Below, one piece after another: positions 4,009 through 57,757 of a stretch of DNA of 64,000 bases (within the stretch, counting starts at the first letter, position 1; each line of letters starts with the position of its first letter). Under the pieces are notes generated by a model that did no database searches, had not been told where the DNA came from, and saw only the letters and a list, made by a program, of their open reading frames with translations. This DNA is from Membranipora membranacea (taxonomy: Eukaryota > Bryozoa > Gymnolaemata > Cheilostomatida > Membraniporidae): contig OU612066.1 of NCBI GenBank assembly GCA_914767715.1, positions 26,634,283 to 26,698,282 on the forward strand. The letters are read 5' to 3'. Made by a program: the position numbers and the translations under genes.

Positions 4009-7000
4009 ATGGGTAGCAATACTTCTTTTCTAAATTTGGTTTCAGTTCTGTTGTTTTTTACCTCGGTTTATCAGTCTACATGCAATGCAGATGGTAGTAT
4101 TGGAGATAGGAGACAGGAAATCACATTGAATACAGATGGAGGTTACGACTTGCTTGTAGCGATTCATGATGACATCACCGAAGACCTCGGACTGCTGAAC
4201 ACTCTGCAGGTAAGTCTGCCATCTCACAATTTGGGATTGCTGCATAATTCAGTATAGTGATGCATTCTGTCTGCAGCATAGCCTTGTGACATAGCCTATC
4301 TCTGCAGTACAGCGATGGTGGGGCTGCTTTCCATCAAGAAAGGCATCTACAAACCTTTAAGGTTGTGAGAAGGCAAAGCCAGTGTTTCATTTAGGCCAAA
4401 CTATTTCCAATTCATGTGTTTCTATTTTGTTTCCAAGTAAGGCACTCAGCCTAGGTTACTTTATTCAGGCCCAATGCTGCAGAGACCAACTTACACCTAA
4501 ACAGTTTGCACATGCGCAGAGTGAAACTACTTATAGGGAGAGATTCCATTGTCCTAAACCTGGATGTCTCTCCGCAACTACACTTAGAATATCTATATTT
4601 TGGGTCATGTTATGTGAAGGGACCAGATTCCCGTATTTATGGACAAGTCTAGACGGGGCCAAGTTTGATATTGGTCAAGGTTGGAGGGGCCAGAATGGCT
4701 TGGACCAAGTTGTCATGCGCCTCCTGATTGAACAGATTGCACCATCGTGCAGTTGGAAGTGAGTTGATTTCGAAGATGTTGTTTAGGAGAACCTGAAACT
4801 ATTACTTTAATTTCTATTCACCTCAGTTGTATTATTTCAAGTCATGGGATGTAAAATAAGTGCCTGCTGTCAATGATCAGTTATTCAGTTTACAATGCAG
4901 AAAAAAGTTGCCTGGACAGTGTCTCTCCACAGTCCTGCCCTGACTCCCGGTCTTCATTACCATAACAACTTTGTTCCTTTCATTCAGTAAGCTGTATGAC
5001 CATTTTGTTGCATTTACCTGAAGCCCATATGTGTTTTTGTAAAGAGCACAATATTTTGCTGCTCTATTGTATATGAGTACCATTCACTCCTAGTGCACAA
5101 GTTAGCAAAACAAAGAACCAATTCATTACATACAGTATGTGCACTGAAAGGTGCTGTATTAAGAATTACCCCCAGCATAGTTACTTTCACCAGACTGTGT
5201 GTATTTAAAAACTTATTTGACTTAGGTTTTCTTGCGAAAAACAATTGACAAACTCCATGATAAAATCAATACTGTTTAGGAGGCGCTGGTAACCATGATT
5301 ATTAATTTTGTGTATTCAGGAACTATACAGAGGTGCTTCTCAGTATCTAATGAAGGCAACAGATGGTCGAATGTATTTTCACAACATCACTATCCTTGTG
5401 CCTATGAACTGGACTGAACAAACTGACTGGGGAGAGGTGTGTGTTTCAGATTTCTCTTTTTGATATGGATTTATGTGTACATACCTTAATTTGGTTCTTT
5501 TATGAACTTTTAAAGGATCCTGTAACCGTCCACCATCACTATGCATCTGTCATCACCAAATAGAGAAAGTAGAAGCTTGAAAATTAAGATCTCCCTCTGA
5601 ATAATTCATATGGTATATCCTGATGGGTAGTAGTAGATGGTATCTTTAAGAGAGTCAAAAGTATCGCCGAATCCTGGCTTACCCCGGGCATCTCAAAATC
5701 ACGGACAGAATTAGATGGATATGAACAGTTTACAAATAAAAGGCTACCAAAGGATAGTTGTAAGACAATAGGAGGAGGCATTTTGATGTACATCGATAAA
5801 TGCTGGTCAACTAATAATCAGACTATCTACAATCATACGGACAATCACTGCGAGATCATGACAATTAAATCTAGACCACATTGGCTACCCAGAGAATTCT
5901 CTTCAATCATCACTCTCTCATGCTATACCCCTTTCACTGGAAAATCAAGACTCAAAGATGCAACCGCCTCGACTATATACACTATAACTTCACATCTAAA
6001 TGAAATTGAGACTAAATGCCTGCATACTACTGATGGGAGACTACCAATCAAGCTCAACAACTACTATCAAATAATCAAGAAACCTACTCGGAATAATAAA
6101 ATACTGGATAAATGCTTCACTGGAATCAAGAACGGCTACAGTCACTGCCACCAACTTGCTAAACTTGGCCTTTCTGATCGCCATGTCATGCATTTAATAC
6201 CTAGCTACAAGCCTCTGTCAAAAACTAAACATTCATATGTCACCCTGTGGGATAATCTTCTCGACGAAACATGCATAAATAAACAGACAGATGTCATCTC
6301 GGATTAGTTAAACTTCTGTACGGACCTGTGCATACCTAAGAAAACATTTAAAAAACACGCAAATCAGAAACCATGGGATTACAAAGCACATAGATAGTTT
6401 GATTGAACAGAAACAAGAGGCGCACCAAAGTGGAAATAGAAAACTGTATCATAAACTTAAAAATTAGTCACCAAAGAAATCACCAAATCCAAAGTGGAAT
6501 ACTCCAAAAGAATTCAACAACATCTAATCAATGAACCGGCCAGAGCTTGGAAAGATATTATTAAGAAATTAAATGGACTTCCTACATCAACCTCTACAAC
6601 TGAACATGAAATAAAATTCAAACCAGATGACCTGAACACCTTCTTTGCACGCTATGAGAAACCTGTAATAAATAACCCAGATATCGATGAAACCAAAATG
6701 ACTGCTCATCCATTTGAAGTGAATTAAGAAACTGTTCTCAAACAACTGAAAACACTCAACTCTAGGAAAGGAGCTGGACCCGATGGATTAATCCCTAAGG
6801 TCCTTCGGATATGTGCCTACCAACTAGCCCCTATTATCACTAAACTGTTCAATAAATCTATAGAGCAACATACGACACCTAAGCTATGGAAATCTGCTGT
6901 AATAAAACCACTACCAAAAGTCACTACACCTACACAGCTCAAAGACTACCGCCCGATTGCCATAACCAGCTGCCTATGTAAAATGTATTAATTTTTAACA

Positions 7001-7300
7001 GAGTATCTGTCTATTTCAGATAAACTGCCAATGTATGCTTGAAAGGATGTGTTTTAGTGTGGTGCTTCCAATAGACGGATGAGCTGTCAATGATTTTCAG
7101 TGTATGTGTGTCAATTTTTCAGGCCCAAGGAGAGAGTTTCAATAGAGCACGAGTTTTGGTTGAACAAGGACTGGACTCTTTTCTTGACCCAGTATTCACA
7201 GTGCAGCCTGGTGGTTGTGGGGAGGAGGGTGACTTTACCCACCTGACACCATCTTTTATCAAAGCCGTTGGGAAGTTGCCAAGTCCATTTGAGAATGATG
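4009..7300 (+). other. CLCA-A exons 1-3: signal peptide and N-terminal domain
   Basis: Exon 1 codes a Met, a hydrophobic stretch of about 14 residues and a small-residue Cys/Asn/Ala cleavage region, then a beta strand (GGYDLLVAIHDDI) typical of CLCA N-termini. Exon 2 gives the strand FHNITILVPMNW. Exon 3 gives GGCGEEGDFTHLTPSFI, matching the conserved CLCA CGE-G-x-(Y/F)-x-H-x-TP motif that precedes the protease helix. Exon 3 ends in phase 1. Confidence 0.85.
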
Positions 7301-10300
7301 GTATGTTCGTGTGAACGAAAACAGTTGCTTCTTCTTATCTGTTATGACTTTCAGTCAAACTTTCCTCTGATTTCATTGAATTCTGTTTGCTTTCAAATGA
7401 TTTTTTGTATCACTCACTGAGAATGCCAATGCCTTCGATTATGTGAAGATGGAAAATGTATGCTTAGACAAGAAAATAGTGTCATGTCTATGTGAAAATA
7501 GCACTAAATATATCTGAAAGACTGCAGAAAGTTAAATGCATTTATAGTCCGGCAGCTACTTATGTTACATTTTATATAAGCTTTGCAAAGGGAAAAATTG
7601 TTTAGTTCCTTTGCCATAAATATTTGATGGTAGTAACAGGGAAATTGTTAGCGAACTCAGCCAATCACAAACATTGCGATCAAGGGACATCACAATGAAG
7701 GGTATGGGAGTTACCTTCCCTCATGGGGAGAACTCATATCACCATCTAAAATTCACGTTCAGATGAGCTGTGCACTTTTCCCTATGCAGATATTATGTAA
7801 CCTTATCACAAGTACCTGCCTGGTTATAACATGAGTTGATTTTTGTGAAGCCTTTAAATTATTTGTAACAAAATTTATAGAAATATTTTGTGGACTCCTT
7901 TCTTTGTGGGAACTCTACTCTCTGGGTCAATAGTGTCCCAACTGGCCGCGATACAGCCCACAGGGAAATCTGTTGCGGTTTGAATATCAAATTATAAGCT
8001 TATGCAGAAATATAGATCTGTAATAGTTATATGATTGATGATATGTGATGAGATGAGTTCCCACCAGTTCCCAATAATTTCTAACACAGCATATCTCACT
8101 TGTAGACTTGTATGAGATGTATGGATTTGATCCTTTTGAACACAGAGACATTGCCTTTGAGCAAACACTTCTTTTTGGAACAAACAATTTACCAGTCATA
8201 GCTTTGTATCTCTCTGCTACTGCGAGGCGAAGCGAGCTCTACTCGAAAGATGGTGAGATGGATAATCCCTTACTCTCCTCTATTGTGGAAAATACCAAAA
8301 TAGAATTTTTACTAGCTTTTGGTTTAAGTTTCATAGATTTAAGATTACCATTCAGCAATCTTTTTTGTCTTTCAGAAAAGGCTGGCGAAGTTTTCCAACA
8401 TACTCTGTGGGGATTTCTCATGAAGCAGATAATGGGTGTCTCAAACTCAAAGGATGTAAGCGATCGTTTTGAGGTGTACAGAACAGAGAGACAGAGGGAG
8501 GATTTAAGTCTCAGTGATCGCCTGATCAACCTTCATAACAGCAAAGTTGGACGAGAGCTTGCAATATCTCTTAATATTTCTGAATTTGCTGTTGGAACCT
8601 TCGATTTGATCTTTGATTCTGCAAAGTTCTGCCTGTTGAAACAAATCATAAAGGGAGCGTTTATCTGTGGAATCATCATTCGTCCTTCTGATTCTACTGA
8701 AGAACTGAACACAAGTAATTGGCTTGAATCATGATTTTTACATGTTTTCTCTTAGGTGACTCAAAATAAACATCAGTAACAATATCTCAGTCCTTCACTG
8801 TGAGTAAACAGAGGTCAATTAATGTTTATTTTGCTTTAGCTGATAGTCTTCATTGACACAGAATGTTGTATAGTAAAACGATCTCCAATTTACTCTTTTT
8901 TTTAGTTGTGGAGCTGATATTTCTGCATCTTCGTCGCCTGATTTCGGCTGTATCATGTAAAGCTGACCTGAAACGTTTTGCCAGAAAATTTGGACTGTGT
9001 GTGTTTAAGAAGGTTGTTATTGGCACCTACGATGCATGGATTGATGCGTCCGTGAGTGAGGTTCAGAAAGCCATGAGAACTGGAAAAACTCTTTCTCAGA
9101 TTGATGATGTGTATGATGTTTCAGCGAAAGAGTTTGATAGGAAATATTTACCAATAAAATATGGAGCATCTGGTAAGTGATCATACTAGATGTTTTCATT
9201 TTCATAGTTTGAGTAGAACAAACTGTGTATAGGAAAAAATACAGTTCATGAGAGTTAAAACTCTATAGACAATAATATGGGATCGGAAAGGATGAGATGT
9301 CCCAGGGAGATTGAAACAAAGTGAGATGAATTCTTATAGAATTTTAAAGAGATCACTACCTCATGTTGCTTGAATTTCAGCTGGTAAAACAACATCTTGT
9401 TTCAGAATCATCTAATTTAAAGACTTTGTTTGAGGCTGCATTTTTGTATCACATCTTATTCTCCATATTTTATTCTATCATGTGAGCGATTTTCAGCTTT
9501 ATAATCCAAATATTGAGGAAGTTATGGCCTCTCAAACTTCCAAGGTGACGGCAATTTATCGGCAGTAAGAATCAGCCGGCAATCCCTAGGGTACGTCACA
9601 ACCATCATACTTATTACGATCCACTAATAAATATGTTGATGATCAAAATGTTCAAATCTGTAACGGTCTCGAACCCAGGTCCAAATGGCTTTGCAGGCAA
9701 CGCCGCTAACACTGAGCTATATTGTCTCCTTGCTAACCTAGTTGGTACAAGTGGCGTGAATGTGATGGTAGCGTCGTTGCCTGTAGGTATGGGAACCCGG
9801 GTTCGATTCCCACCCAGGTCTGAATTTTGATCATCATCTTATCTGTGTGATTATTAGTGTATTAACTAATAACTCATAATGTCTATGTCACATGTCTATG
9901 GTTGTGACATACCCCAGGGGAAACATCCGCTTATTCCCAATGCCTATTGAAGGCAATCACCCTGGAAGTTTGAGAGGCCATAACATCCTCAATATTTGGA
10001 TTCTAAAGCTGAAAATCGCTCACATGATAGAATAAAATATGGAGAATAAGATCTGATACAAAAGAGCAGCCTCAAACAAAGTCTTTAAAGACTACAGAAG
10101 GGCGAAGCAATAGCAAGCAAGCATTAGCAGCCCATAAAACAGTTATCGAGCTGTATGATTCTCTTGATTGTTCTAGAAAAGAAAATTGTAAGAGAATGGG
10201 GGCATCTCAGATGGGGACTGTTTGATGAAAGTCCAAAGGGGAGTGACCCCTTTTTCTATAGCAATGGAAGAATCCCCAAGCCAACCGGGTAAGTACAAAC

Positions 10301-13300
10301 AAGGGGATGTCAGTGCGTTTTGCCCAAGGAGAAGCTCTGAAGTTGTTTGAATTTTGTTGTTGTTCTGATGCTCTCTTTGACTGAATTACAGCCTTAGTAT
10401 GGGAACAGCAATGAATTTGTATATTGCCCCAGTGTCTTATCGCTATGACTACATTGGACACGTCTTTGAGGAAGAAATATGGTAGTTGTTTTCGCTCTAT
10501 GTATTCCTACATAAAACCCATGTTAACATTTTCCCAATGCATAGACTGGATCATGCATGCATATATTGACACAAAGTTGCATCTCAACCACATTTTGAGT
10601 ACCAAATCTTTTCCCAGTTTTTTGCAATTGATCGGAAATCTTTGGATCATGCCCTAAAAAGGTTAGAGACTGTACTTTGTATAAACTTGAAATTGTTCAG
10701 AGAAAAACTCTCAGCATAAGTCGGTAATGTTACACGCTTAGATAATAGATAACTCATCACATATTCATTAATAGGTGTCCAAGAAATATCAAGGGAAGAG
10801 TACATGATTGGGAAGACAATACAAAAGGCTGCAAAGTAAACGCAGCAACTGGATTGCCAGAGAATTGTGCCTTTACAATCGACGGAAATATGAACGAGAC
10901 AGCATCTCTGATGTATGCCGAGTTTCTTCCTGGGGTAAGTTTTAGCTGCTGCAATTTCTTCTCACTCTGATTGGATGATCATTACAAATGGGAAGTCTGA
11001 ACTCAATGACTGCTGCTTAATCTAGAATGCTAGAAGTGGCAACAGTAAAGCAATAAATCATTTAAGGTCTATAAAGCTTTCGTGACTGTCCAGTTTGATT
11101 TCAGTATCTTATGAGAAAAACTTTATTGAAACCACGCATTTAATCTCATGATTTATTTGTGTAAGTTTTTTTCTTTCTAAGTAGCCTTATTGAATACATA
11201 TTCACACAGGTGACACAATTCTGTAATGGAGGAATAATTGTGTTTGATTGGTTTGAAGTCACATGGTTCGTTAGTGATGATCACCTGCATGACTCTCAAT
11301 CACCAAACCAGCAAAACAGAATGTGCAACCAGCAGAGTGCCAGAACCGTCATGGATGCCCACAAAGATTTTGGTGAGTTTTTGCATTTTTATTTTTGATT
11401 AGTTTATTTGTTGTGGCTTTCTAAAAGTCTATGATTAAAGTCAATTAAAAATAACTATTTTTCATTCACAGATGATATACTATAGATATACCAAAAACAT
11501 TCTATTTCCCATGATAGCAGAGTTAAGCATAAAAAGACAATAAAATTGAGTGTCACCATCACTATGATTAATCCCTGTGCACTCCCTACCTCTCGTTCGT
11601 TCTTAGACTGATGTGCTGCCCATCTATAGTTTGGTCTGCAGGATAAGGCCCGATTATTTTACTTTATTGATTAGAGATAATTATTATTCATATTGCTCCT
11701 GTTCTTGCTGCGAACCTAATGCCTGTCTACACAAGCGTGAAATTATATTTCAATATTGCTTTTAACTTGCTTGCATCTCTTCCACTGCAACACAGGATCA
11801 AACCTGCCATCCAAGAAATCATTCATTCCTCCTACGCTCTTCACAATTATACAACAGAAGCAGAAAAACAACACAAAAACAGTTTGTCTTGCCTTGGACA
11901 CCTCCGGGAGTATGGCGGTAAGTTTAACCTCTCAGACTTCATAACTTAAGAATTGTTGGAACTTGTCAGCTACAAACCAAATGTGCAGACTGTTCTGTCC
12001 ACGTAATTCGACAGCAAATTGAAAGTATTATACAGTATTATATATATCCCAGTGTTTTCTTTCAGGGTGATAGAATTGAAAACATGGCAGCAACTGTACG
12101 CAGCTACATAGCCACCTATGTACAAGATGGATTCTCTGTTGGAATAGTAGAATTTTTCACTTATGCCAGAACTGTGGCTGCTATCCAGATGATTACTGGA
12201 CAAGAGGTCAGGGACCACCTTCTTGCTGCTGTTCCCATTGAACCAGGTGGATCCACAGACATAGGGGCTGGACTGCAACTGTGCCAACAAGTGAGCTTCA
12301 ATTTGGTGTAGTTACATCTCAAAACTCAAAATGGTTTTTTTCCTTTATTGACAAATTCTTTTGACAGTACTCATGCAGGACTGTGTATAGTGTATGCTTG
12401 TTATATTCAAGATCAGTTTTTTTTTTAGAATTTGAGAGGCTATACAGATGGATCACCGATGGGCACAACCATTCTGCTACTGAGCGACGGAATATCCTCC
12501 CTTCCTAGTAACGTAATCCCTAGCTTAAATCAAGACGGTATCACAGTCAATACCATAGCTTATGGGTACGTAGGGTTATTATGTGGTCCGTAATTCAGCA
12601 TTGCAAACCATTTTTGCTACCTACTTGCTTATACTAAAGTTTTTTATACTGTCAGAATGAACAATTTGATCCTTCCCTCGAACTGAATGCATGTGCGGCA
12701 TGCATACTCTACTATGATGTTCTGCGTAATCTTTTATGAATTTTTGAAATGTATATTGTTCTTATATATATTATGACTTTCTGAAAAATAATGTTCCTTG
12801 CATTTGTGGGTTTTTTGGGCTCTGATCATACTGATTCTAAATTTTGGCGGGTCAAATCTGGCGGTTCACACTGGTTGACATCATGACAATCAGAAGTCAA
12901 TCTAGTACCCTGTCAATCAAAATCAATGGTAGCAATGTCTCAATCTGGTTGATTTTAGACAAAGCACTGGAACAATTCTCGATGAAATATCAAGCAACAC
13001 AGGTGGAATAAGCTATTTTGCAGGAGACACAAATGCCTTAAGCAGTATAACAGCTGCACTACTGGCAATCACACAGCGGAGCTCTAATGATGCCTTAGTT
13101 TCAGTATGTTTCAAGACTATGAATAAGTTGATTGCCTCTGATTCTAAGAATGATGAATGAATGAATGTGTTCAATTGTCAGTTACGGATATATATCAATG
13201 CAGAGAGAAGAAAACCAATGACCTATGACCTATGACCTATGGCCTATGACCTATGATCTATGAACTATGACCTATGACAGCCACAGCAACATTTGAGTCA

Positions 13301-15872
13301 TATTGACACTATTGTTTATGGAAAGTGAGTAATTCTTACTTCTTCTTATTGGCAGCATATTGTTTTTTCAATCTTCTCTTAACTGCCAGGATGAAACCTT
13401 TTTTTTACAGATAGCTAACAAGATTGTGACCCTCAGTCAGGCAGAGCCAACATTGAGTCAGATAGTACACCTTGACCCCAGCATTACAAACACACACTTG
13501 TCATTCACATCCTCCAGTGACATCCAGGTAGATGTGATCACCGAGGATGAATCTGCGGAAATTGTTTTCACAGAACAACCTTCAAATAATAGAGTTGTTG
13601 CTGACATAAATAGACCAGTTGTAAGTATTTCCGATAACTATTATATTATGATCCATGAAAGAATACTGTGATAAAGGAACACGTGCAAAATAGTGCCCTT
13701 CAGAATAATTCTCTCCCATGTTGGATCTTGTTAGCCATATATTGAGCAAGCAGTGGGATAATGGTAAATAATAGAATAGCCCTCATATATTATATTGTCA
13801 TAATAATAATGTTCAATTACTATTCCATATCGTTGTCAAAATTTTTAATTCGTTATACAGGAATTATTAAAATTAACAGCTATACTTCATCTTGCCTTTT
13901 AGTCAGGTGCGGTGGAGTACAACATTACAAGTTTATATCCATCAGCAAATCACGATGTTGTTGTGACTATTACATCAACCCCTGTCAAAGGACAGGATCC
14001 GATTGTCATCGATGCAAAATCAGACAAACAGAATATTACCTTCAATGAACTCTCACAGGTGACTGAGGACTTACAACCATCATGTGTTCTTTGACTTTAA
14101 TATTATAGTATATTATTAACAAAATTTAATCTTATTTGAATGCTCTATATTCATTTCACTTCGCCTTAGGAACAATCCTCACAAATTCTATGTATTAAAT
14201 GTTATCTAGGTCAAATTCTTCGTGACGATCCTCAAAGGAGTTGTACCAGTGTCTGGTTTGGAGGTGATCACCACAGTCAGTCTACCTCTCAATGATGAGC
14301 AAGCGCTCATAAAAATGAATGACAAAGGGACAGGTATACTTCTGATGGTTAAAATAATAATTAATGTTAATATTAGATGTTTCTTGCAACCTGCTGCCAG
14401 TTCGACAGACCAAGAAGCTACCAATAATGTGAAATGGCAACAAGAATCTGCTCCTTGTGAAGCTACCTTTGAGCTATTCTCTCAAGTATTGAAAAAAATT
14501 TACAATACCCTTGTGTTTGTTTTGTTATGCCAGGAGTCGATTCTGTGGCTTGTGATGGTGTTTACAGTGGAAACTTGAATCCCAACCAGTTCAATGGGGA
14601 CGGTTATTATGGTTGGAAAGTAAGTACTTCAAGTTCAAAATTATGTGCACTGGCATTGACCAATTGCGGAATATGATAAATTCCACCTGTAAACTTATGG
14701 ATTAAGGTGAAAAACAAAGTTAAGAACTTCATTCATATCTGAGTAATTTTTGCTCATTTTCAGGTTGATATTAGTGGGTCTCCCTTTTTGAGAAATGTGA
14801 AAGAAAGATCATTTTGTGTTCGAAGTGAAGGACTACCACTTAATTCCATAACAAGGAATCTCGAAGGTGAGAATGATGAATTGGAATCATATCAGCTGCC
14901 ACAATTATCATCACCAGTTACTGACTGCAGTATGGCTGATTGTTCTTTATCATACTTCTAGCTAAGCTTAGCGATTCTCAGTCTTCAGCACTGTAATACT
15001 TCTTTATGCTGTCAATTTGAAATATGCATCTACCATAGATAAACAGGACACTATTAAGAACATTAGCATAAGCGGCGTCACAACAGTTTTAGAATTGTTT
15101 GAATTGAATTGAATTTGAATTGCGAATGAGATTTTTGACTTTTTTTGAAGTTTTCTTGCCCCATTGAAAGAGCATTATATTTGAAGGTGGGCTGATTTAT
15201 GTGACAAACTGGAGGATGATATTGATAGATGAGATGCCCCCAGAGCCTGTTCGGGATCTGACACTGCTGACTGCTGTAGATGGATCAGATACTTTCACTA
15301 TTGGCTGGACAGCTGCAGGAGATAACCCTGGTCAGGGTACAGGTTGGTTTGCTATCGATGTTTCGGTAGTTGGACTAATGTTACCCATCAATTATGTTTT
15401 GAAAACCGATGCCCAGAATGAATTACGTGAATTGGAATGGTTTATTGTTTCACCTAGAGATGAAACTGAACCAAATGTCAAGCATCACCGATGTAATTCA
15501 AGGCCAGTTCCAAGGACATAACCTGTTTTACTTTTGATAAGGTTTTTCTGACACAAAAATTACCCATCATAGATCATGTTTCTGTCTTACTAGCCACAGG
15601 ATATGAGCTTGCAGCACATACTGATCTGAAAACTATACTGAATACCACAACACTGCAACCTAATAACATATTTTGGACAAACTCAAGTGGGTTGGAGAGG
15701 GAAGCTGGAGAACCAGTCCAGATGAAAATCAATGCGAGTATGTAATAAATGATCCTAACAATCTTGAATAATTGCTTTTATTGTTATCACATTGAATTGT
15801 TTGTTGCATCGTGTTTATGGTTGACTGATTCATTGATTGACTGATTCATTGATTGACTGATTCATTGACTGA

Positions 15873-15965
<93 letters not shown>

Positions 15966-18900
15966 TGACTGACTGACTGACTGACTGACTGACTGACTGA
16001 CTGATTGATTGACTGATCGACTGACCGACCTACCGACCGACCGACCTACCGACCGACTGACTGGCTAACTGACTGACTGACTGCTTGATTGGTGAGTTCC
16101 GTTACATTATCCCATATTTAATACCAACATTGTGTTCAATACAAAAACATGATAACTGTCATAAAGCTGAAAACAGACCACTGCAGAGAAAACAAAAATA
16201 CATGTACCAATTTCGGTTTGGCTGAATCACTGATATGAATAAATTTTAGCAGTGATCATATTGATGTGTGTGATGAACAGCATGTCTGTCTCTTCATCAT
16301 TAATATGCGGTATACTTTTTCTCAGCTGAGCTGGCCATGATGATCAACAGCAGATCAAAGCGGTCTGTAGATGATCAAAACAACCGGACATCCGCACTAA
16401 ACCAGACAGACATTGTGTACTATATCAGACTGCGAGCATTCGATGCGGAGAAGAATGGTGCTGCCTGGTCTAACATTGTGTCTGCTTTCTTCTTGAAACC
16501 AGAAGACTTTGAGAAACCTGTAAGTGAAATGAGTGAAGGAATTTCAGAACTTTAGAAATTTTGTAGACTCAGTCATATATTTCAGGGCTATCTGCATCAA
16601 TTGAATTCTCTAGAGTCTAATTCACCCCAACAAAAATATATATTGGTAACGCAATCTCCAGAGCGAATGAACTGATCAATCAATTGGATTCTATTAGTAT
16701 TTTTCCAGGGTATATTCATGGTCGACATCTATTGTTTTTATCTTTATCCCCATTTAATGTTTAAGGATCATGAATGGATTGGCTGGTGATCTAGAGCACT
16801 AGCTCTTTAATTGCATACCGCGGTTGGTTAATATATTTTTCAAGACTGCAAGTTGGTTTTTGTTTTGCTCATGTTTGTGTGAGAACCATAGACATAATAA
16901 TACACCCAGAAGGGACACTATATGGAGCATTAGCATTGAGGCACTGAGGCATTTAATTGTGGGCGACGTAACGACATTGGAAGGGGTAGAAGCAATGATG
17001 CTATCATTAATTTACTGTTCAAAATCCAGGTTTTTTGTAGATAACTCCATTTTGATCGGATTTTGAGTTACAATAGATTTAGTAGCGTGTCCTGAACAGT
17101 TTGATACTAATTTTAGGCAAAAACAACTTTGAAGAAAACATAGCATCAAGTTGATAACAAGATGCTGCTGATTGTGAGCAGTCAAACATCCCGAGAGACC
17201 CAGATGAATATTCTATGGCCACCATTCATCGCTGCTTAGTGCATAGGGCTAGATGATCAATAATAAAATGTTTTCATGATAATGTCATTGTACTATTCCA
17301 TTGCATTTATTTGATTGACGTGAGAATCGATTGATAGCAAGAATAAGAAAAAAAATACTTTACCTCATTGTTTTTATGCTGTTTCCTCCTTCTGTTCTTA
17401 AATACTACTCTCCCTTTGTTGTTGTTTTGACCTCGCTTGTTCTTTTGATTTCCCATGGTCAGTTCATACAGTTATTTTACAGACTTGGTCAGCAAAGACA
17501 GATAAAAATTAAAGCATCAATTAATTCATTCACAACAGCAACTAAAGATGGCCATCAAAGTAAACTGCGCAGTAATACAACAACAGGCCACGCCTCCTTT
17601 ATCACCAAGCAACCCCAAACAAACAATAAGTTTGATTGTTGACCTCTGTGAAAACTACACTATCTCATATACACAAAAGCCTAATTCTAGAGCATGGTTC
17701 ACGACCAATCATCAATGAGGCACTAAATTACATGCATGAGCAACAGCTGGTTGCCAGCATAACACTCATCACCAATCATTCATGCTAAACAAAACCAGCA
17801 AATATAAGCCCTTCACTTTCAATAATACTATCATATTATTTACGTCAATATCCTAAACACAATATGGTCAACATTCTAGAGTTGAGTTAAACCTGAGAAT
17901 AGATTCGAGCCCTATAACATGAACTCTTCTTCAACACTATATCAGTTTCAAACAGAATGGTAGTAATTAAGTTGCTAATACTGTCCGGTAAAAATTCCAT
18001 GAAAATTGGAGGAGTTGTCCCCCTTTTATCCAGTCTGTATTAGCTGAAATTAGGGTCGTCTCTCCAGTTGATTAGTCAGAACTTGTATTTGCCCAGCTCT
18101 TGTTGTGGCACTCAACAAGGTTATATGGGACATGAGGTGCCGTATAATTTTTGACAGTGAGGTTTTTATCTTCAATGTTCTAAGGTCGAGATTTTTGTCT
18201 GCTGTTAAACCCTTTTTCAGCAATATCATCATCATCATCATATTTTATGATTGATGTATATCGTGCATCAATAGAGATTCGTTTTTCTTTCTTCTCTCAT
18301 GGTTTTTTTTCCAGCAGTCACTCTCAATGACTGATCCGAAATTTGTTTTTGTTGCCAACTCTTTGGTGAGCCACGGGACAACCTTTTCTCCCGCTAGTGT
18401 GTGTTCAGGCAATCGATGTCTGCATGAGAATTTGTGGTGAGCCGGTCACAGCATACTTAGCAAAACCTAATACCATACACAAACCTTAATCAAATATCAT
18501 CTCACTAATTTTCCTTCCTTTCACAAACATTATTCCCGTGGCTCAGTAGACAGTTGAAGAGGGTGATATGGGATCAATCCCAATTTTTTCCGAGTTTCTG
18601 GGTGAAACGTCGTCCTGCTTATCAAAGTTTTGATAACGAAGAGGCTTTATAGACCAGTATTTTGTCGATGTTCTGGCTTGCCTTAAACAGGAACATTGGG
18701 ACTCAGTTGAAGGTGTAAATCAATATTGTATTATATTCAAATAACATAAGCCAAACACCCTGTTCTATTGAAGCTTTAATATCCATATGTTTTTAGATGA
18801 AATGACCCAAAAAACATGATCATGACACAACGTCATACACATTTGGTCTTCAAAAGCTAATAAACAAATGCTAAGGTCATCTACTTTAACATATAGACTG

Positions 18901-20499
18901 CTTCGAAAAAATATTAGATTATTATATTTCACCTTAAGCACTTTTCAAATTCAAAATCCGATCGAAATTGATCGATGTATGAACAAAAAACCTGGATTAT
19001 GGGCATCAAATCAATAATAACATCATTGCTTCTACACCTTCCAATGACGTTACGTCGCCCCACAATTAAAGTGCCTCACTTCAGCTGCATACAGTATCCT
19101 GTCTAGGTTTATTATTAAGTCTATAAGGAGAACTTACACTGACTACCAAAGCGTTCGCTCAGTGGTATCCATATTCCTTTGATTTACTATATAATTATTC
19201 AATATTCTAAAATACCCACAGTGAAAGTTAAGCTTGATGCTATTGATAAATCATTATATAGGCTTGTGAAGCTTTGACTTTATTTTCAGATCATACTGGA
19301 TGGAGACAAGTATGAGGTATATGATCCGAATGAGGTGAGTTGAATGGGCATCGATTTGGCAATTCAAATGAAGTTGCCCGTTGTTAATTTGAATGTTATT
19401 TATTAGGTTGCCATGATGATAAAACTTCAAAATGTTCAACTGCGGTTGAAAATTGAACCTGAGCCTCCAATGCCACAGCCTACGATGTTAACAGCTCAGC
19501 CACACGTATCGGAGACCAAAAGCAAATGATGGAACATGCACCAAAATTAACGAAGGTTTAACTCGATAACTCTTGTATAATTGATGTGAAATCGATACAT
19601 GGGGATTTTTAGGTGTTTGTGATTTTCCTATAACCTTGCTATAGGGATCTTTAAAACAATTTGAGAATCATTTGTGGGTTACAATTCGCCTTAAACGCAG
19701 AATCATGATGAAGATAAAATCTTTTAGCTGTATATTCTAAAATATAATTATTTCATGATTACAACAGTTCCCACCATCCAAGTGTTTTAGCTGTATATTA
19801 TAAAATATATTCATTTCATGATTACAACAGTTCCCACCATCAAAGTGTTTTAGCTGTATATTCTAAAATATAATTATTTCATGATTACAACAGTTCCCAC
19901 CATCCAAGTGTTTTAGCTGTATATTATAAAATATATTCATTTCATGATTACAACAGTTCCCACCATCAAAGTGTTTTAGCTGTATATTCTAAAATATAAT
20001 TATTTCATGATTACAACAGTTCCCACCATCCAAGTGTTTTAGCTGTATATTATAAAATATATTCATTTCATGATTACAACAGTTCCCACCATCAAAGTGT
20101 TTTAGCTGTATATTATAAAATATATTCATTTCATGATTACAACAGTTCCCACCATCCAAGTGTTTTAGCTGTATATTATAAAATATATTTATTTCATGAT
20201 TACAACAGTTCCCACCATCCAAGTGTTTTAGCTGTATATTATAAAATATACTTATTTCATGATTACAACAGATCCCACATCCGTATCACCAACTCATTTA
20301 TATTTATTATCAGCTCACCCTTGCGGAGATCCTGATCGCTGAAATAGAGCATGGAGACAATGATGATGATGATGACGACCCGACAGTACGTGTAAACAAA
20401 GGAGATATTGTTCTAGCAGGTGGCATTATCGGTGCCCTTGTTGTCATAATCATCATAATAATCTTTGTAATCATAATCTTTGTGAAGAGAAATAGATAG
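4009..20499 (+). CDS. CLCA: CLCA-A: CLCA-family protein with inserted domain, 23 exons, 1238 aa
   Basis: Exons: 4009-4209, 5320-5436, 7123-7300, 8106-8252, 8376-8714, 8906-9172, 10177-10288, 10775-10934, 11210-11372, 11796-11917, 12066-12290, 12429-12565, 12959-13103, 13411-13620, 13903-14058, 14210-14333, 14534-14619, 14764-14866, 15187-15342, 15594-15737, 16326-16519, 19290-19334, 20314-20499. All joins are GT-AG and the frame stays open for 1239 codons. CLCA proteins are secreted or surface proteins with an HExxH metalloprotease domain and a VWA domain, and they modulate calcium-activated chloride channels. Seen here: signal peptide 1-26; N-terminal domain to about 165; a foreign 251-residue block (166-416); a degenerate REWGH motif (422-426); VWA MIDAS at D596/S598/S600, T666 and D697; RSKR at 1107-1110; a membrane anchor near 1209-1233. 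Vertebrate CLCAs have about 900-940 residues, so the insert explains most of the excess. The start is the first ATG before the signal peptide. Confidence 0.9.
5570..6990 (+). pseudogene. LINE fragment in intron 2 of CLCA-A (endonuclease C-terminus to RT start)
   Basis: At about 5640-5800 the reading gives the end of an AP-endonuclease (ESWLTPGI, then GGGILMYID). At 5783-6307 and 6494-6980 follow the linker and the RT opening (SRKGAGPDGL, LWKSAVIKPLPK, KDYRPIAITS). Stop codons at 6307 and 6725 break the frame, and homology ends just after 6980, before the RT catalytic core. It is truncated at both ends, which is unusual for a LINE, where 5' truncation is the rule. It belongs to the jockey/CR1/Rex-like group; the exact clade is open. 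Confidence 0.75.
8106..9172 (+). other. CLCA-A exons 4-6: inserted DUF6973-like domain
   Basis: Three exons (147, 339 and 267 nt), each phase 1-1, code 251 residues (166-416) absent from ordinary CLCA proteins. Conserved features are YGFDPFE near the start, H223-x2-W226-x2-L229-M230, G235, D244-x2-E247, and the block DRLINLHNSKVGR at 262-274. Towards the end is a SEVQKAMRTGKTL segment. From memory this order (H..W..L, G, D/H..E, D(L)HN..VGR, V..A...GK) matches a helical domain found in bacterial extracellular proteins, catalogued as DUF6973. The match is by eye. Its biochemical function is not known to me. The region lies in the secreted part of the protein. Confidence 0.55.
9416..10092. mobile_element. 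Palindromic element with two outward tRNA-like modules
   Basis: It lies in intron 6 of CLCA-A. Two arms of about 310-330 bp (9416-9722 and 9750-10092) are reverse complements with moderate divergence. Near the apex each arm carries a tRNA-like Pol III module. On plus, the box GGTTCGATTCC lies at about 9800-9810 behind GTGATGGTAGCG. On minus, GGTTCGAGACC lies at about 9665-9675 behind ATAGCTCAGTGTTAGCGG. The modules point outward. It is probably two SINEs joined head to head, or a MITE that captured a SINE. No true tRNA cloverleaf closes. Confidence 0.65.
10177..11372 (+). other. CLCA-A exons 7-9: broken HExxH helix and Cys-rich region
   Basis: Exon 7 opens EKKIVREWGHLRWGLFDE. The CLCA consensus here is a zinc-binding HEWAHLRWG. 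In A the first metal His is Arg (R422) and Ala is Gly, while Glu423 and His426 remain. Exons 8-9 carry the family's Cys-rich segment (CPRNIKG, KGCK, ENCAF, TQFCN, NRMCNQQSA) that leads to the VWA domain. Without the first His, classical gluzincin zinc binding is unlikely. Confidence 0.85.
11796..13103 (+). other. CLCA-A exons 10-13: VWA domain
   Basis: VCLALDTSGSM gives the MIDAS DxSxS (D596, S598, S600), GGSTDIGAG gives the Thr (T666), and LLLSDG the Asp (D697). All MIDAS ligands are present, so divalent-cation binding is predicted. In vertebrate CLCA1 the VWA MIDAS is needed for effects on TMEM16A; transfer of that role to this protein is inference. Confidence 0.88.
13203..13278 (+). repeat. 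Heptanucleotide array (CCTATGA)n
   Basis: About ten imperfect copies of CCTATGA lie in intron 13 of CLCA-A. Confidence 0.8.
13411..14866 (+). other. CLCA-A exons 14-18: beta-rich domains
   Basis: Exons 14-16 code beta-strand-rich segments (SGAVEYNITSL, HDVVVTITSTPVKG, VKFFVTILKGVVPVSG) that match the beta-sandwich region after the VWA domain in CLCA proteins. Exon 17 has ACDGVYSGNL, equivalent to the NDGIYS motif of the family. Frame and phases are intact. Confidence 0.75.
15187..16519 (+). other. CLCA-A exons 19-21: FN3-like domain with RSKR site
   Basis: PPEPVRDLTLL, FTIGWTAAGDNPGQGTA and YYIRLRAFDAEKNGAAWSNIVS form an FN3-like beta domain found near the C-terminus of CLCAs. Exon 21 contains RSKR followed by Ser (R1110/S1111), a furin-type consensus, in a polar loop. 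The exon 19 donor was chosen at ACAG/GTTGGT because it restores the family sequence GTA and the phase of exon 20; a further open stretch after it is intronic read-through. Confidence 0.75.
15818..16090 (+). repeat. Compound (CTGG)n/(GACT)n microsatellite
   Basis: Intron 20 of CLCA-A holds GATTCATTGATTGACT units, then about 20 CTGG units, then GACT, GACC and mixed units. The boundary patterns suggest successive slippage. Confidence 0.9.
16887..19125. mobile_element. TIR element with long arms and imperfect 8-bp duplication
   Basis: It lies in intron 21 of CLCA-A. The left end starts CATAGACATAATAATA and the right end is its complement; similarity continues about 200 bp inward at both ends. 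The flanks GTGAGAAC and AGGAGAAC agree at 6 of 8 positions, consistent with an aged 8-bp target duplication. The 1.8-kb core holds no transposase-like ORF; a 103-aa reading at 17331-17642 has no family features. It is the same family as the ends at 26567/30246 and 52226/63898. Confidence 0.65.
19290..20499 (+). other. CLCA-A exons 22-23: C-terminus and membrane anchor
   Basis: Exon 22 codes 15 residues (IILDGDKYEVYDPNE). Exon 23 codes an acidic run (DDDDDDP), a hydrophobic helix of about 25 residues rich in Ile and Val, and a basic end KRNR before TAG. This is a type I membrane anchor, as in the membrane-bound members of the family. Confidence 0.85.
19736..20274 (+). repeat. 63-bp minisatellite, 9 units
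   Basis: It lies in intron 22 of CLCA-A, ending about 40 bp before exon 23. The segment TTTCATGATTACAACAG recurs every 63 bp from 19751 to 20255. Two unit variants alternate in the first six copies (TATAATTATTTC with CCATCC, then TATATTCATTTC with CCATCA), a 126-bp higher-order period. Because 63 is divisible by 3, it creates a false repeated ORF on the minus strand. Confidence 0.93.
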
Positions 20500-24043: not shown

Positions 24044-27000
24044 CTGAAAAAGAAAGTCCAGATTTGACACCGACATCGGGCTTATGATCCTCAATCACAA
24101 TTATCCAACATGCCCTTACTGTGAAAGCTTTAGATGATGGCATATTCAGTTATATTTCGTCAGGAACGGGTGGAATTGAAAAGTATCAATATCAATCAAG
24201 CTTCAAATTGAACCAGGGCCATCACTAAAAAACGCACATGAAAATGACCTAACAATCTAAGATTCAATGTGCATTGATTGGAAATCCAAGCCAGGGTTCT
24301 GCATGATGTGTGGTCAGTCGGACTGCAATGTCATTATCAGTGTAAGTTCAACCAAAAATATGAACAGAAACAAAAGCAGCTTCCAAATATTCACAGAAAA
24401 TTCAACCATCAGGTATCCAATTAAAAGGAAAGTCAGTGCACAGGCCTACCAGATTTTCAATGCATTGTGCTTCGATTTCTAAGAGACAATGGGTTCGAAT
24501 AAAGATAGAAACATTTGACGTTGACAAATACCCATATTCTGATTGGTTAATAAATTCATTAATTACAGTTCAGGCGCTATTAGTACCAATGTTTGATGAT
24601 GACGTAAATCTGTAAAGCCTATGATTGAATTGCTGTAGAAATGCATAAGAATAGATGATTGAAGAATCTGAATGATGATTATTTACTGGCTGTGACCACT
24701 TACTGGTTTCTCAAAATCTTCTGGTTTTAAGAACGAAGCAGAGACAATGTTAGACCAGGCAGCACCATTTTTCTCTGCATCAAACGCTCGGAGCCTGATA
24801 TAATATACAATCTCTGTCTGGCTTTGTGTAGAGGTTTGGCTGCTTTCATCATCAATAGACCGCTTTGATCTGCTGTTGATTATCTTGGCCAGCTCAGCTG
24901 AGGAAAAATTATTTCTTATTAATGAAGGCAGGAACATTGATATAATGCATTAATATGTGTGATTCTGACAAACTGAAAATTTTGCCTTCTGTTGTTGCCA
25001 ATCATCAATTAGCTGGTCGACCTATTTTGCCTTAGGACAGGAGATTCCTTTCTACAGAATATTGACAATGTTTCTGTTTGAGAATACAGCAAAGGTAACA
25101 TAACATATACATGAGTCGGCTCCTATCAATCAATTATCAATGTAGCTAACATCAAAATACATACTTTATGAGTGGCCTTTAATATAATTAAATATTATGA
25201 ACAAATACTTATATGAGGGACTTATTATTTGCTTACTTGCATTGATTGTCATCTGGACCGGTTCTCCAGCTTCCCTCTCCAACTCACTTGAGTTTGTCCA
25301 AACAATGTGATTAGGTAGCAGGGATGTGCTATTCAGTAAGGAGTTCGGATCAGTATGTGCTGCAAGCTCATATCCTGTGGCTAGTACGACAGAAAAAAAA
25401 CTGCAGATAGCTTGTGGATCAAAAGTTTACAACAAGACTTAAAATAATTGGTTGCTTGAACCAGGTGCGACATGGGTGAAGCTTATCATTCAGTTCAATT
25501 CAGTTTCACAAAAATGATTGCCCTTTGAACTCATCCATTCAGGTTAACTGGTTGTCATTTACCTTATTTATGAGGCCAATGATTCTGATGACCAGGAACA
25601 TCAATAGCAAACCAACCTGTACCCTGGCCAGGGTTATCTCCTGCTGCTGTCCAGCCAATAGTAAAAGTATCTGATCCATCGACAGCAGTCAGAAGTGTCA
25701 AATCGCGAACAGGCTCTGGGGGCATTTGATCTCTCAATATCCTCCTCCAGTTTGTCAAATAAATAAGCCCACCTATAAAATTATATAAATGTTTCATTGT
25801 TTTATTTTAGTAGAACTTTCATGATTACATAAACAAAGATCATTTATGCTCTACTTAGTCAAAAAGGTTTTAGCCATAAACAGATGTTCAACTAAGGAAC
25901 AGCTCACCATAAATTACATGCTGTTGGTCTACGTGCAAATTTCTGGAGCTTTGGGATAATGGGCGGATAAATAAACTTCTTATTTCTAGCTTTTACTTGT
26001 AACTACAGTGTATATACCTCCATAGAAAAGAAGTGACAACAAAGAACATTAGTTAAGGTTGTTTCAAAAACTTCCACTGCGCGTTTGTCACAACTAGAAT
26101 ACCCTTAGGAATCCAAGGCAATGTAGAGTCAAAAGGCAAAAACCAACACACAAGAAAATCATAGCCTTTGAGAAATTGTTGATGAAAGGTATGACACCTT
26201 GATATCATTCCAAGAAATGCTGCAGTATAATAAATGAAGGGAGCTTATTGGTTTACTACATGTTTTACTGTAAGCTACTCTGACCTTCAAGGTTTCTTGT
26301 TATTGAAGGAAGTGGTAGTCCTTCGTTTCTTGCACAAAATGTTCTTTCTCTGACATTCCTCAAGAAAGGATAGCCACCTACATCTACCTGGAAGTACGCA
26401 ATATTTACGCAAATTTGTACATTCATTAGGTTTGGCCTTAAAATGCTATTTTATTTCTCAGGTTAAGACCTTAAAGAATATAAAAAGATTATGTGATTTT
26501 GCTCTTTGCCAGGCATAACTAATGTAACTACATAAGAATTCCATGATGAGAATATCCTGAACCCACTCTAAACCTAATAATAAACCTAGACAGGACACCA
26601 TATACAGCTGAAGTGAGGCACTTAATTGTGGGCGGCCTAGCGACATTAGAAGGTGTAGAAGTAATGATGCTATCATTGATTACAGTCCACAATCTAGGTT
26701 TTTTGTTCATAACTCAATTTATTTTGATCGAATTTTCAATTTGAAAATTGCTTTACAGTCAGCAGCAAATTCGGACAGTAAAATTGGGATCCTTGTAGAT
26801 CAATTTGCTCCTTTCAAAACACATCGTTCACAGCAAAAGAGTGATCTTTGCTGGTCATGTCCAGTAGCTACACAGCTTGTTAAATTAAAAGACAGGCTTT
26901 TCAAAAATTTGCTGACAGTGATTACGATAAGTCCTCAGTTGCTTGGGAAAATTATCGTGTTTTGCGTAATCAAGCTGCAAATGCAGTGCGAGATGCAATA

Positions 27001-30000
27001 AAGCAAGTTACAAAAGCTGTCCTTGGTGATAATTCGATTTATCAATGGCAAAAAATCAAGATTTTTCAGGATAGTATTCCCCAAGGTAACAACACAATAA
27101 AAGAAATGGATTTTAACGGTTCAAAAACAACATCTAACTCTGAAATAGCAACTGGTCTGAACAATTTTTTCTCAACTATGGGTATAGAGTTAAACGAGCA
27201 GGCAGAGTCATCAGCAATTTTGTCAGATACTGTTCCAACTGAAATCCTAAATTTTAACCACAACAGAATTGCCTTTCAAGAGACAGATAATTCTGAAGTA
27301 TCCAATACATTAAATTCCCTAGAATCAAGGAAAACCGGAGGTTTGTCACAAATACCAGCTTTTATATACAACGTTTTAGAACCCTTGATTCTTAATCCAT
27401 TGACTCATATTTTTAATCTTAGCCTAAAGACCAATCAATTCCCAAGTATTTGGAAAAAAGCTCTGGTGATTCCAATTTTCAAAAGTGGTAAAACAACTTC
27501 TCCTAATAATTACAGGCCAATTTCATTGCTGCCAATACTCAGCAAAGTTTTGGAAAAAATAATGATGCCCAAATGCCTGAATACTTAGACTCTCATGACC
27601 TGATAGCTTTCAGACAATTTGGTTTTCGTAAAGGCACATCAACTGATCAGATACTTTTACAATTTGTCAACAAAATCAGACATAAGCTTTCCAAACCTGA
27701 TTCCCATTCTGTCACGCTTGCTGCACTAGACATAAAGAAAGCATTTGATTGTGTTAATCATGAGTTACTGACCAAAAAATTATCTTCCAAGTTTCACTTT
27801 GAAAATGGTGCTTGCGCTTTCATCAAAGATTATCTGTCTAATAGGGTGCAAGCTATGAAAGTGAAAAGGCACATCTCGGACTGTTGTATGATTAGAACAG
27901 GGGTGCCACAAGGTTCTGCTTTGGGCCCATTATTATTTATAATGGGCCCAATGATTTGATGAGTCTTCAAAACTGCTACCTCTTTGCTTATGATTGCTTG
28001 TTGGTTACTGGGGGTAATAATCCCTTAAAATCTACTCGAGCAATGGAAATTACTATGGTTCAAGCCTCTGAATGGTACAATTCTAATTGTCTAGTGTTAA
28101 ATAGTGCCAAAGCTGATGTAATAACAATATCAGTGTGCCTGCGGCTGCGCCTGCGGCTGTGCCTGCGGCTGTGCCTGCGGCTGCGCCTGCGGCTGCGCCT
28201 GCGGCTGCGCCTGCGGCTGCGCCTGCGGCTGCGCCTGCGGCTGCGCCTGCGGCTGCGCCTGCGGCTGCGGCTGCGCCTGCGGCTGCGGCTGCGCCTGCGG
28301 CTGCGCCTGCGGCTGCGCCTGCGGCTGCGCCTGCGGCTGCGCCTGCGGCTGCGCCTGCGGCTGCGCCTGCGGCTGCGGCTGCGCCTGCGGCTGCGGCTGC
28401 GCCTGCGGCTGCGCCTGCGGCTGCGGCTGCGCCTGCGGCTGCGCCTGCGGCTGTGCTTGCGGCCTGGGTACGTTGCCTTTGGGGTGGTGTAATTGCTATG
28501 TGTTTGTAGCACTGACCTGATTGGTCGCATGGCGGTGATAATTGGTTTGCTTGCCTTGGTGTGGGGTCTATTGTTTGCACTCCTGCATTGCCCTTCAGTG
28601 TGGATTTGGTTATCTATTAATTTTCATCTCACTTCAGTTATACTATAATTGAATTTTCCTTAATTTTACCTGTGATTTATTGAGTCATAGGAGTTGATGA
28701 GAGCCTTCTGGATCACTGAGGTGAGATCTTGTATTACATTATTGTTTTCATGCTTATTGATGTTCGCATTACTGATATTTTTGATGTCAGATTTTTTGTT
28801 GTCAATGATTTGATGTCAGCATCATTGCCATTGGTATTTATGCCATTTATCAGAACTGAACTTATGCAATGTTTTTTCTCTTCTTTCAGTTTTACAACAC
28901 GTATCGTTATAATATAACACATCAAACCGTAACTCAACCCAGAAACCTGGTTCCACACACCCCTATAACAACCACAAAACAATTATACAACAAACATACG
29001 CTGCCCTGCAGCTACAATCAGTTAACGATGATATCTCCATTCCCGATTTGAATTTTAAAAACATGACTTTTAAACAATCCGAAGTAATAAAATACTTAGG
29101 AGTTGTGTTGGACAACAAATTGAATTTTAAAAGTCACATAAAGAAAGTAAAACAGAAATTATACCCTATTATCACAAATTTTTAGCATAACAGAAAATTT
29201 TTATCTCCCCAGCTGGCTCGCCTATGGTATACTGGTCTCATTCGATGTCATCTGGAATATTGTGCATCTTTAATACACTCCATGAACGACCAAATAAAAA
29301 AAAGAATTTCAGAAAATTGAGAATCGCTGCCTCAAAATAATTGATTTTAACCAAACAAAAGATGAGACAAGGCATCTATACAGTATCCCTAAATTTTTAA
29401 CTCGTTTTGAATACCTTTATCTTTTAAGGTTTTACCAACTTGTCAATTCTCAGGTGCCAATCATTGATAGAGAACTTTTACCTAAAAAATTGACTAGCGA
29501 AACTCGTCCCTCTAAAAGCGAAGTATTACAATTATCAAAGGACAAATTTAGATTTGCCATCGCCAATTTTGGTGCCAAACAATTCAATTCATTACCTCAC
29601 CACAGTAAGCTATGCTCAACAGTTATTATGTTTAAATCTGCCATAAAGAGCCACCTTCTTCATTGTTAGTTCTCTAAATTTCTTTCGAATATTTTATTTT
29701 TATTGCTTATTATTTGACGTATATCTGCTTAATGTTTTTCTTTGATGACTTGCTAACTGATAAAAAGTATTTTGTGTATTAATAATGAACTTTTTCTTAA
29801 ACTTCTTAGTAAATTTTACAGTTAATAATTCTTATGCTTGCCTTTTAATTAATTTTTGCCTAATATATTTAAAATCCGCGATTTCTCACATGTATGTTTA
29901 TTTGTTTCTGGATAAAAGTCCCTGACTTAATCTGCACCAGAATAAAAATGGAAAATATATTGTGTTAACAACTCAATTTCTTTCTTCTTCGAAAATTGTT

Positions 30001-57300: not shown

Positions 57301-57757
57301 AGCTCAAATCAGGGGCCAACCACGGCTTATTTAGTGTTAAATTTCTGTTAACATATATTCTTTTGACATCTCTTATTCAGGTGATAGCGCATACAGGCAA
57401 GAGCTTTATATGATGAAACCTTATAGGGATAGGAACAACAACCCGAGGAGAGTTAAGAGGTACAATCAGGCTCATAGTGCTACCAGGGTACTTGTTGAGC
57501 ATGCTAACGGCCGTCTGAAGAATACCTGGAGGAGACTGAAACATCTGGATGTACGCAGTAGGCACAAAGGCCGTGTAATAATTAGATGCTGCCTTGTGCT
57601 GCATAATTATATGCTTAAAATGGACTGCGAGTCCGATAGGGAAAATGCAGCTAGAGAAATGGCCACTTTAAGATTTGACACTGCCTGTGGTAAAAGAGAG
57701 GCCATTTGCAAGACTTATTTCAAAGCAGCTTCAGATGAAGACACTGTCCTGGAGTAG
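54387..57757 (+). CDS. Harbinger DDE transposase, 6 exons, 384 aa
   Basis: Exons: 54387-54603, 55198-55369, 55686-55825, 56250-56320, 56722-56899, 57381-57757. All junctions are GT-AG and the phases match, giving 385 codons. The protein cuts and moves the transposon in the nucleus as a complex with the Myb-like partner. Visible features: FKSAFRLSREAFDTLLSEL (family N-terminal helix), an HTH-like VSIATHFNVTHSTVRECV, first catalytic Asp in GVIGLVDGTEI, second in GSPGSYHDARVLRR, GDSAY, and the C-terminal NQAHSATRVLVEHANGRLKNTWRRL with the final acidic residue. No stop or frameshift is seen, so the gene may be recent. It resembles HARBI1-type proteins but sits inside TIRs, so it is a transposon gene rather than a domesticated one. 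Confidence 0.9.

Follow-up and report, generated by a model that had tools for sequence, protein, structure and literature searches.

Two convergent CLCA-type genes of the bryozoan Membranipora membranacea carry an in-frame insert with an eroded, DUF6973-related core

The stretch of DNA considered here (64,000 nucleotides, hereafter the window) comes from contig OU612066.1 of the Membranipora membranacea assembly GCA_914767715.1, positions 26,634,283 to 26,698,282 of the forward strand, and holds two convergent paralogous genes of the CLCA type, A on the plus strand (4009 to about 20499) and B on the minus strand (47812 to at least 23990), in both of which a block of three exons is set into the CLCA domain. 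Gene A begins with exon 1 (4009-4209), which supplies the start codon and a hydrophobic leader recognized by eye and is backed by its frame, its donor GT and the match to the paralogue; exons 2-3 (5320-5436 and 7123-7300) encode the first part of the CLCA domain and end just past the CGEEGDFTHLTP motif. The insert follows in three exons, each of phase 1-1: exon 4 (8106-8252), whose second half can be aligned to the opening helix of the bacterial DUF6973 domain, exon 5 (8376-8714), bearing the DUF6973- or Min-Wnt-like core, and exon 6 (8906-9172), encoding 89 residues. The zincin helix lies in exon 7 (10177-10288), and exons 9-22 (10775-16519) encode the remaining CLCA domain, a VWA domain with its metal-site residues and a beta-rich, FN3-like part; a candidate exon 8 of 90 bases (10392-10481), in frame and GT-AG-bounded, has no counterpart in gene B and was omitted from the protein used. 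Exon 23 (19290-19334) and the inferred last exon (20314-20499), the join between them being deduced from phase, would add an acidic region, a single strong hydrophobic helix, a short basic tail and the stop codon. Acceptor AG and donor GT are present at exons 2-20 and donor GT at exon 1, and the joined frame of exons 1-18 (exon 8 omitted) is free of stops. The predicted product of gene A, host to the insert, is a membrane protein of type I composed of leader, CLCA pseudoprotease with insert, VWA domain, beta/FN3-like part and one membrane helix, by which it would be anchored.

Gene B starts with exon 1 (47812-47612) and reaches at least as far as a counterpart of exon 23 of gene A (24043-23990), with insert exons 4, 5 and 6 at 38251-38397, 37523-37864 and 36859-37128, respectively, and the zincin helix in exon 7 (35742-35853). 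AG/GT borders were found at 16 exons counted from exon 2 and donor GT at exon 1, and exons 1-18, joined likewise, contain no stops; an early end of the gene at 30.4 kb was considered and rejected on account of further exons at 26.4-24.0 kb. A first-pass annotation of this DNA had placed the junctions around the block at 7300/8106, 8252/8376, 8714/8906 and 9172/10177, all of which proved to be GT-AG and consistent in phase, and had claimed a large in-frame block in both paralogues where relatives have none, which agrees with the open frames of 251 codons in A and 253 in B, 71% identical as protein. The frame across intron 4 of gene A (8253-8375, 123 bases; 386 bases in gene B) has no stop, so that this intron could be retained without harm.

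In gene A the cassette of exons 4-6, in frame and with GT-AG borders, separates the CGE motif from the zincin helix, and in gene B the cassette takes the same place (36859-38397, minus strand). The Pfam CLCA profile (PF08434) matched A with an expectation value (E) of 2.2e-51 and B with 4.3e-42, in two stretches per gene that flank the block, the best stretch spanning, out of 266 profile positions, 1-116 in A and 121-261 in B; the question raised beforehand, whether the block might be ordinary CLCA sequence, is answered in the negative, the matches falling on either side of it. The spacing from GGCGEEGDF to the zincin helix amounts to 277 residues in A and 279 in B versus 23-30 in 18 of 19 CLCA relatives, the nineteenth (P0015) lacking the first motif; the relatives were taken from a search with the full-length protein in which the 7993 candidates with the most shared words were scored. 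Ordinary family members, credited earlier with about ten residues at this place, are indeed far shorter there than A and B, the actual figure being about 18-25 after TP. The block is absent from all 18 relatives carrying both motifs. The top-scoring relative, the protein P0001 from Bugula neritina, also a bryozoan, is 31% identical across 53% of the query (E 6.4e-97) and as predicted lacks the insert, a statement that covers the annotated protein only, exons missed in annotation being possible. Searching with residues 150-432 (2208 candidates scored) returned nothing at E up to 1, and the block alone (4973 candidates) gave one match, P0020, of 161 amino acids on a 1122-base contig, which is 50% identical to the query across 40% of its length. 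All these searches rely on shared 5-letter words, by which distant fusions or the Min-Wnt proteins of rotifers and an acorn worm could be missed; within that limit the fusion was found nowhere else, in keeping with the initial remark that no CLCA protein of this architecture was known. Genes A and B show that a CLCA pseudoprotease can take in a foreign block directly ahead of its former active-site helix.

As to the origin of the block, its sole Pfam match in gene A is DUF6973 (PF22322; E 7.1e-5, block residues 45-115), and this family, again with no other, was matched by the block of gene B (E 0.024) and by P0020 (E 0.01). A prokaryotic DUF6973 set was gathered by a motif scan yielding at least 120 loci, of which 96 satisfied a regular expression for the domain and 41 remained after filtering to <60% identity; the scan pattern was a DUF6973 motif partly similar to the one named in the first-pass annotation, and all 41 proteins were then confirmed by Pfam. 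The profile of the 41 proteins scored the insert of A at 21.1 bits, P0020 at 13.5 and the insert of B at 13.4, versus 5.2 for the best shuffle (6507 of 9000 shuffles scored), and hhalign gave a probability of 90%. Two Endomicrobium proteins provided the best pairwise matches (43.1 and 40.8 bits) among the loci listed (at least 120), and since they are best only within that sample no bacterial donor is claimed. Judged by these sequence comparisons, the homology of the insert core to DUF6973 is significant.

The resemblance to DUF6973 proposed at the outset stands for core residues 45-115 and fails for exon 6, whose supposed C-terminal helix with the motif "A..TGK" was rejected: its scores against the bacterial C-terminal profile (-0.8 and -1.3 bits) lie far below the best shuffles (7.4 and 8.5 bits, with 3418 and 3312 of 5000 shuffles each scored). 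Likewise, of the "251-residue domain" the 251-codon block is real and only putatively a single domain; the DUF6973 match covers part of it. The block matched nothing in NCBIfam or PADLOC, and in PHROGs only weakly matching entries of unknown function; one of these, PHROG 36663, also of unknown function, was hit by exon 6 of gene B (37128-36859, E 0.0058) and not listed for gene A. Compared by itself with the PDB sequences, the block found nothing credible, and viral pattern scans gave no match.

By our reading DUF6973 corresponds to Min-Wnt, a family within the lipocone superfamily (PMC12419801), and this apparent kinship to Wnt and other lipocones changes the meaning of the insert. Bacterial and archaeal members share with the insert the core pattern HxxWxxLM ... 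E ... LHNxxVGR, and some of the bacterial proteins among the 41 sampled carry WXG100, PPE, EspA or RHS parts; the insert differs from them in its eroded catalytic residues, its score below the Pfam cut-off and its nesting in an animal CLCA protein. The structure alignment took in 40 of the 41 proteins, L051 being omitted. At the Min-Wnt active-site columns, occupied by His (helix H2), Glu (H3) and Asp (H4), gene A has H, E and N, and both gene B and P0020 have Q, E and H; the His of HE is replaced by Phe in all three. In place of the sNxxGR motif of H4, NSKVGR is found in A and P0020 and NSKVGQ in B, the second Asn of NNxxGR being Ser in each case. With its active-site columns eroded in this way the insert is predicted to be catalytically inactive, as animal Wnts are likewise described to be in PMC12419801. 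We regard it as an eroded homologue of putative lipocone fold, assigned neither to the active Min-Wnts nor to PF22322 membership.

The CLCA host has lost its own catalytic site too. The first-pass annotation spoke of an HExxH helix, whereas the sequence there reads REWGH in A and RQWAH in B: the first zinc-binding His is Arg in both, and in B the Glu has in addition become Gln. HExxH is kept in 16 of the 19 relatives, the exceptions being P0001 (REFAH), P0016 (HEWGQ) and P0019 (HEWAK). P0001 resembles A and B in its CLCA-then-VWA order and in the Arg at the first zinc position and differs in lacking the block; the loss of the protease site may be older than the split from Bugula. A His to Arg change at this position of the zincin motif, and recurrent site loss in CLCA proteins, have already been described (PMC3650047). 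The VWA domain (PF00092; E 3.4e-14 and 2.9e-14) retains the metal-site residues DTSGS, T and D in both genes.

Comparison of the paralogues bears on whether the block is maintained. The four introns flanking it are alignable between A and B only in short pieces, the longest of 39 bases. The ratio of non-synonymous to synonymous substitution rates (dN/dS) equals 0.35 for insert exons 4-6; the CLCA part gives 0.20 and exons 11-18 give 0.15. The Fisher test for selection gave P of 2.5e-8 for the block as a whole, 0.012 for exon 4 and 3.8e-8 for exon 6, the last being under purifying selection between the paralogues. A pseudogene reading was rejected in view of this ratio and the lack of stops. 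Synonymous divergence (dS) is low in exons 2, 3 and 5 (0.21-0.27, with 0.21 in exon 5), whereas exons 4 and 6 have higher values (0.56 and 0.91), possibly by patchy gene conversion.

The likeliest job of a protein that has lost its protease site and whose lipocone site is eroded is binding. Under the mechanism we propose, a symmetric phase 1-1 cassette would have put an eroded DUF6973 relative together with about 90 further residues between two conserved CLCA motifs; the lipocone pocket would no longer cut lipid head groups and would instead bind a lipid or lipid-linked ligand, probably microbial, the VWA domain would bind a protein partner, and the two might act together as an adhesive or immune recognition receptor. 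We tentatively take the product, at somewhat less than an even chance, for a surface receptor that has a VWA domain and no enzyme activity and that binds ligands linked to lipid, perhaps of microbial origin, in its lipocone pocket; inclusion of exons 4-6 in the mRNA, ligand binding and an immune role are inferred as parts of this reading. In evolutionary terms the insert might represent a further independent animal uptake of a bacterial effector-type Min-Wnt domain, nested in a dead cell-surface CLCA protease, where an enzyme that cut lipids would have become a sensor of lipids or patterns; the superfamily would then have given up catalysis for animal recognition along a parallel route, and this we hold to be conceivable and on the whole doubtful.

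Several published systems come near to this arrangement. The Met-TelC proteins of cnidarians and arthropods are described in PMC12419801 as mostly inactive lipocones fused to vWA and immunoglobulin (Ig) domains and a transmembrane helix and are proposed there as sensors of lipid-linked envelope molecules, with an adhesive or immune recognition role like the one suggested here. Such secreted proteins, in which a lipocone that is mostly inactive stands beside vWA, resemble the host of the putative lipocone insert and are, by description, the closest published analogue, set apart by belonging to another lipocone family, which stands ahead of vWA and is not nested in CLCA. Animal Min-Wnts, which the same source reports from rotifers and an acorn worm as primarily standalone, catalytically active and independent of Wnt, also place a Min-Wnt-type domain in animals, and compared by description the insert differs from them in its nesting and its erosion. 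CLCA, Bugula, bryozoa and chloride channel are not mentioned in the main text of PMC12419801; the literature search found no paper joining lipocone and CLCA, and none on DUF6973. Within the searches made, this is a new architecture from known parts. According to Burroughs et al. (2025; PMC12419801), Wnt descends from bacterial lipid-acting effector domains and lost catalysis after entry into animals. If our interpretation is true, the insert would be an independent replicate of the Wnt-type path, with an unrelated protein as host and with erosion at partly the same positions, and would offer a place to test inactive lipocones as lipid or pattern sensors.

Certain results weigh against the proposed receptor and its lipocone identity. 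The PF22322 scores, 22.8 bits in the block of A, 14.7 bits in that of B and 15.9 bits in P0020, are under the curated cut-off of 27, and the roughly 90 residues of exon 6 have no assigned relative. A model of 8111-8713, a stretch read straight from DNA with intron 4 included, reached a mean predicted local distance difference test score (pLDDT) of 56, with 72-87 in blocks for residues 91-160 and helices on the core motifs; a fold search with this weak model gave no lipocone preference over other folds, BteO taking second place in Foldseek (probability 0.35) and ninth place by Z (4.2), with no Wnt listed. For exon 5, the insert core, purifying selection taken alone is not significant (Fisher P 0.19); with so few synonymous changes the A/B pair shows no constraint on the core; the P0020 match argues for some. 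In gene B no counterpart of the membrane-helix last exon of A was found at E up to 10. The scores under the cut-off and the weak model could be taken to mean that the insert is an unrelated, animal-made helical segment matching DUF6973 by chance, the more so as only about 65-70 of 251 residues match and the bacterial set was gathered with a motif partly like the one first named. We consider this very improbable, since both paralogues and P0020 point to one family and no other, the scores of 13-21 bits stand clear of every scored shuffle, the pairwise match reaches 43 bits and the Pfam match is independent of the motif scan. Derivation from an animal Wnt gene rather than from bacterial Min-Wnt, suggested by the likeness of LINLHNSKVGR in gene A to LMNLHNNEAGR of solved Wnts with the same Asp to Asn change, is also improbable, if less so. 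Through DUF6973 the insert and animal Wnt (PF00110) would have the superfamily core in common, and both have lost the active-site Asp. Yet B and P0020 have His at that column, so that the change in A is no evidence for Wnt descent; the Pfam wnt profile matched none of A, B and P0020 at E up to 10 (HMMER filters on). The block moreover retains the bacterial helix pattern HxxWxxLM and in the alignment has no loop between helices H2 and H3, hence no Wnt-type insert with the cysteine-rich hairpins and lipid-bearing Ser loop given as Wnt features in PMC12419801.

Two further alternatives concern use rather than identity. Vertebrate CLCAs have a chloride-channel role, and the bryozoan proteins might keep an ordinary CLCA function at the cell surface, regulating chloride channels or mucus, in which case the insert would have no ligand of its own and would only tune stability or the binding of partners; the retained VWA metal-site residues and general CLCA layout speak for this. 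Nevertheless, the protease site, required for self-cleavage of vertebrate CLCAs, is gone, and a block of 250 residues beside it would be a heavy means of tuning binding, so we find this unlikely. It is rather doubtful, though somewhat less so, that the cassette is optional, most transcripts splicing exon 3 to exon 7 into an ordinary inactive CLCA and the insert being rare or confined to one cell type. Because exons 4, 5 and 6 are each of phase 1-1, skipping preserves the frame, and the junction would read FEND-EKKIVREWGH, close to YP-EKRLVREFAH of Bugula; in both paralogues, however, the three exons are open, have good borders and show the constraint given above, which argues that the insert is made at least sometimes. 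Optional use would in any case be no rival to the identity of the domain.

Probable traces of mobile elements also occur in the window. Intron 2 of gene A holds broken reverse-transcriptase-like fragments (5624-6991), named by eye. In intron 1 of gene B two inverted arms of 352 bases (39650-40001 and 45853-46204), 89% complementary, 5851 bases apart and made of short repeated units, enclose a reverse-transcriptase-like frame (41524-43200), and this arrangement looks like a fold-back element. This frame is related to a second reverse-transcriptase-like region (26884-29660), likewise named by eye and broken by a simple repeat at 28117-28500, most of the pieces that align being about 60-70% alike at the protein level. 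Finally, an open frame at 57341-57757 resembles, by eye, part of a transposase.
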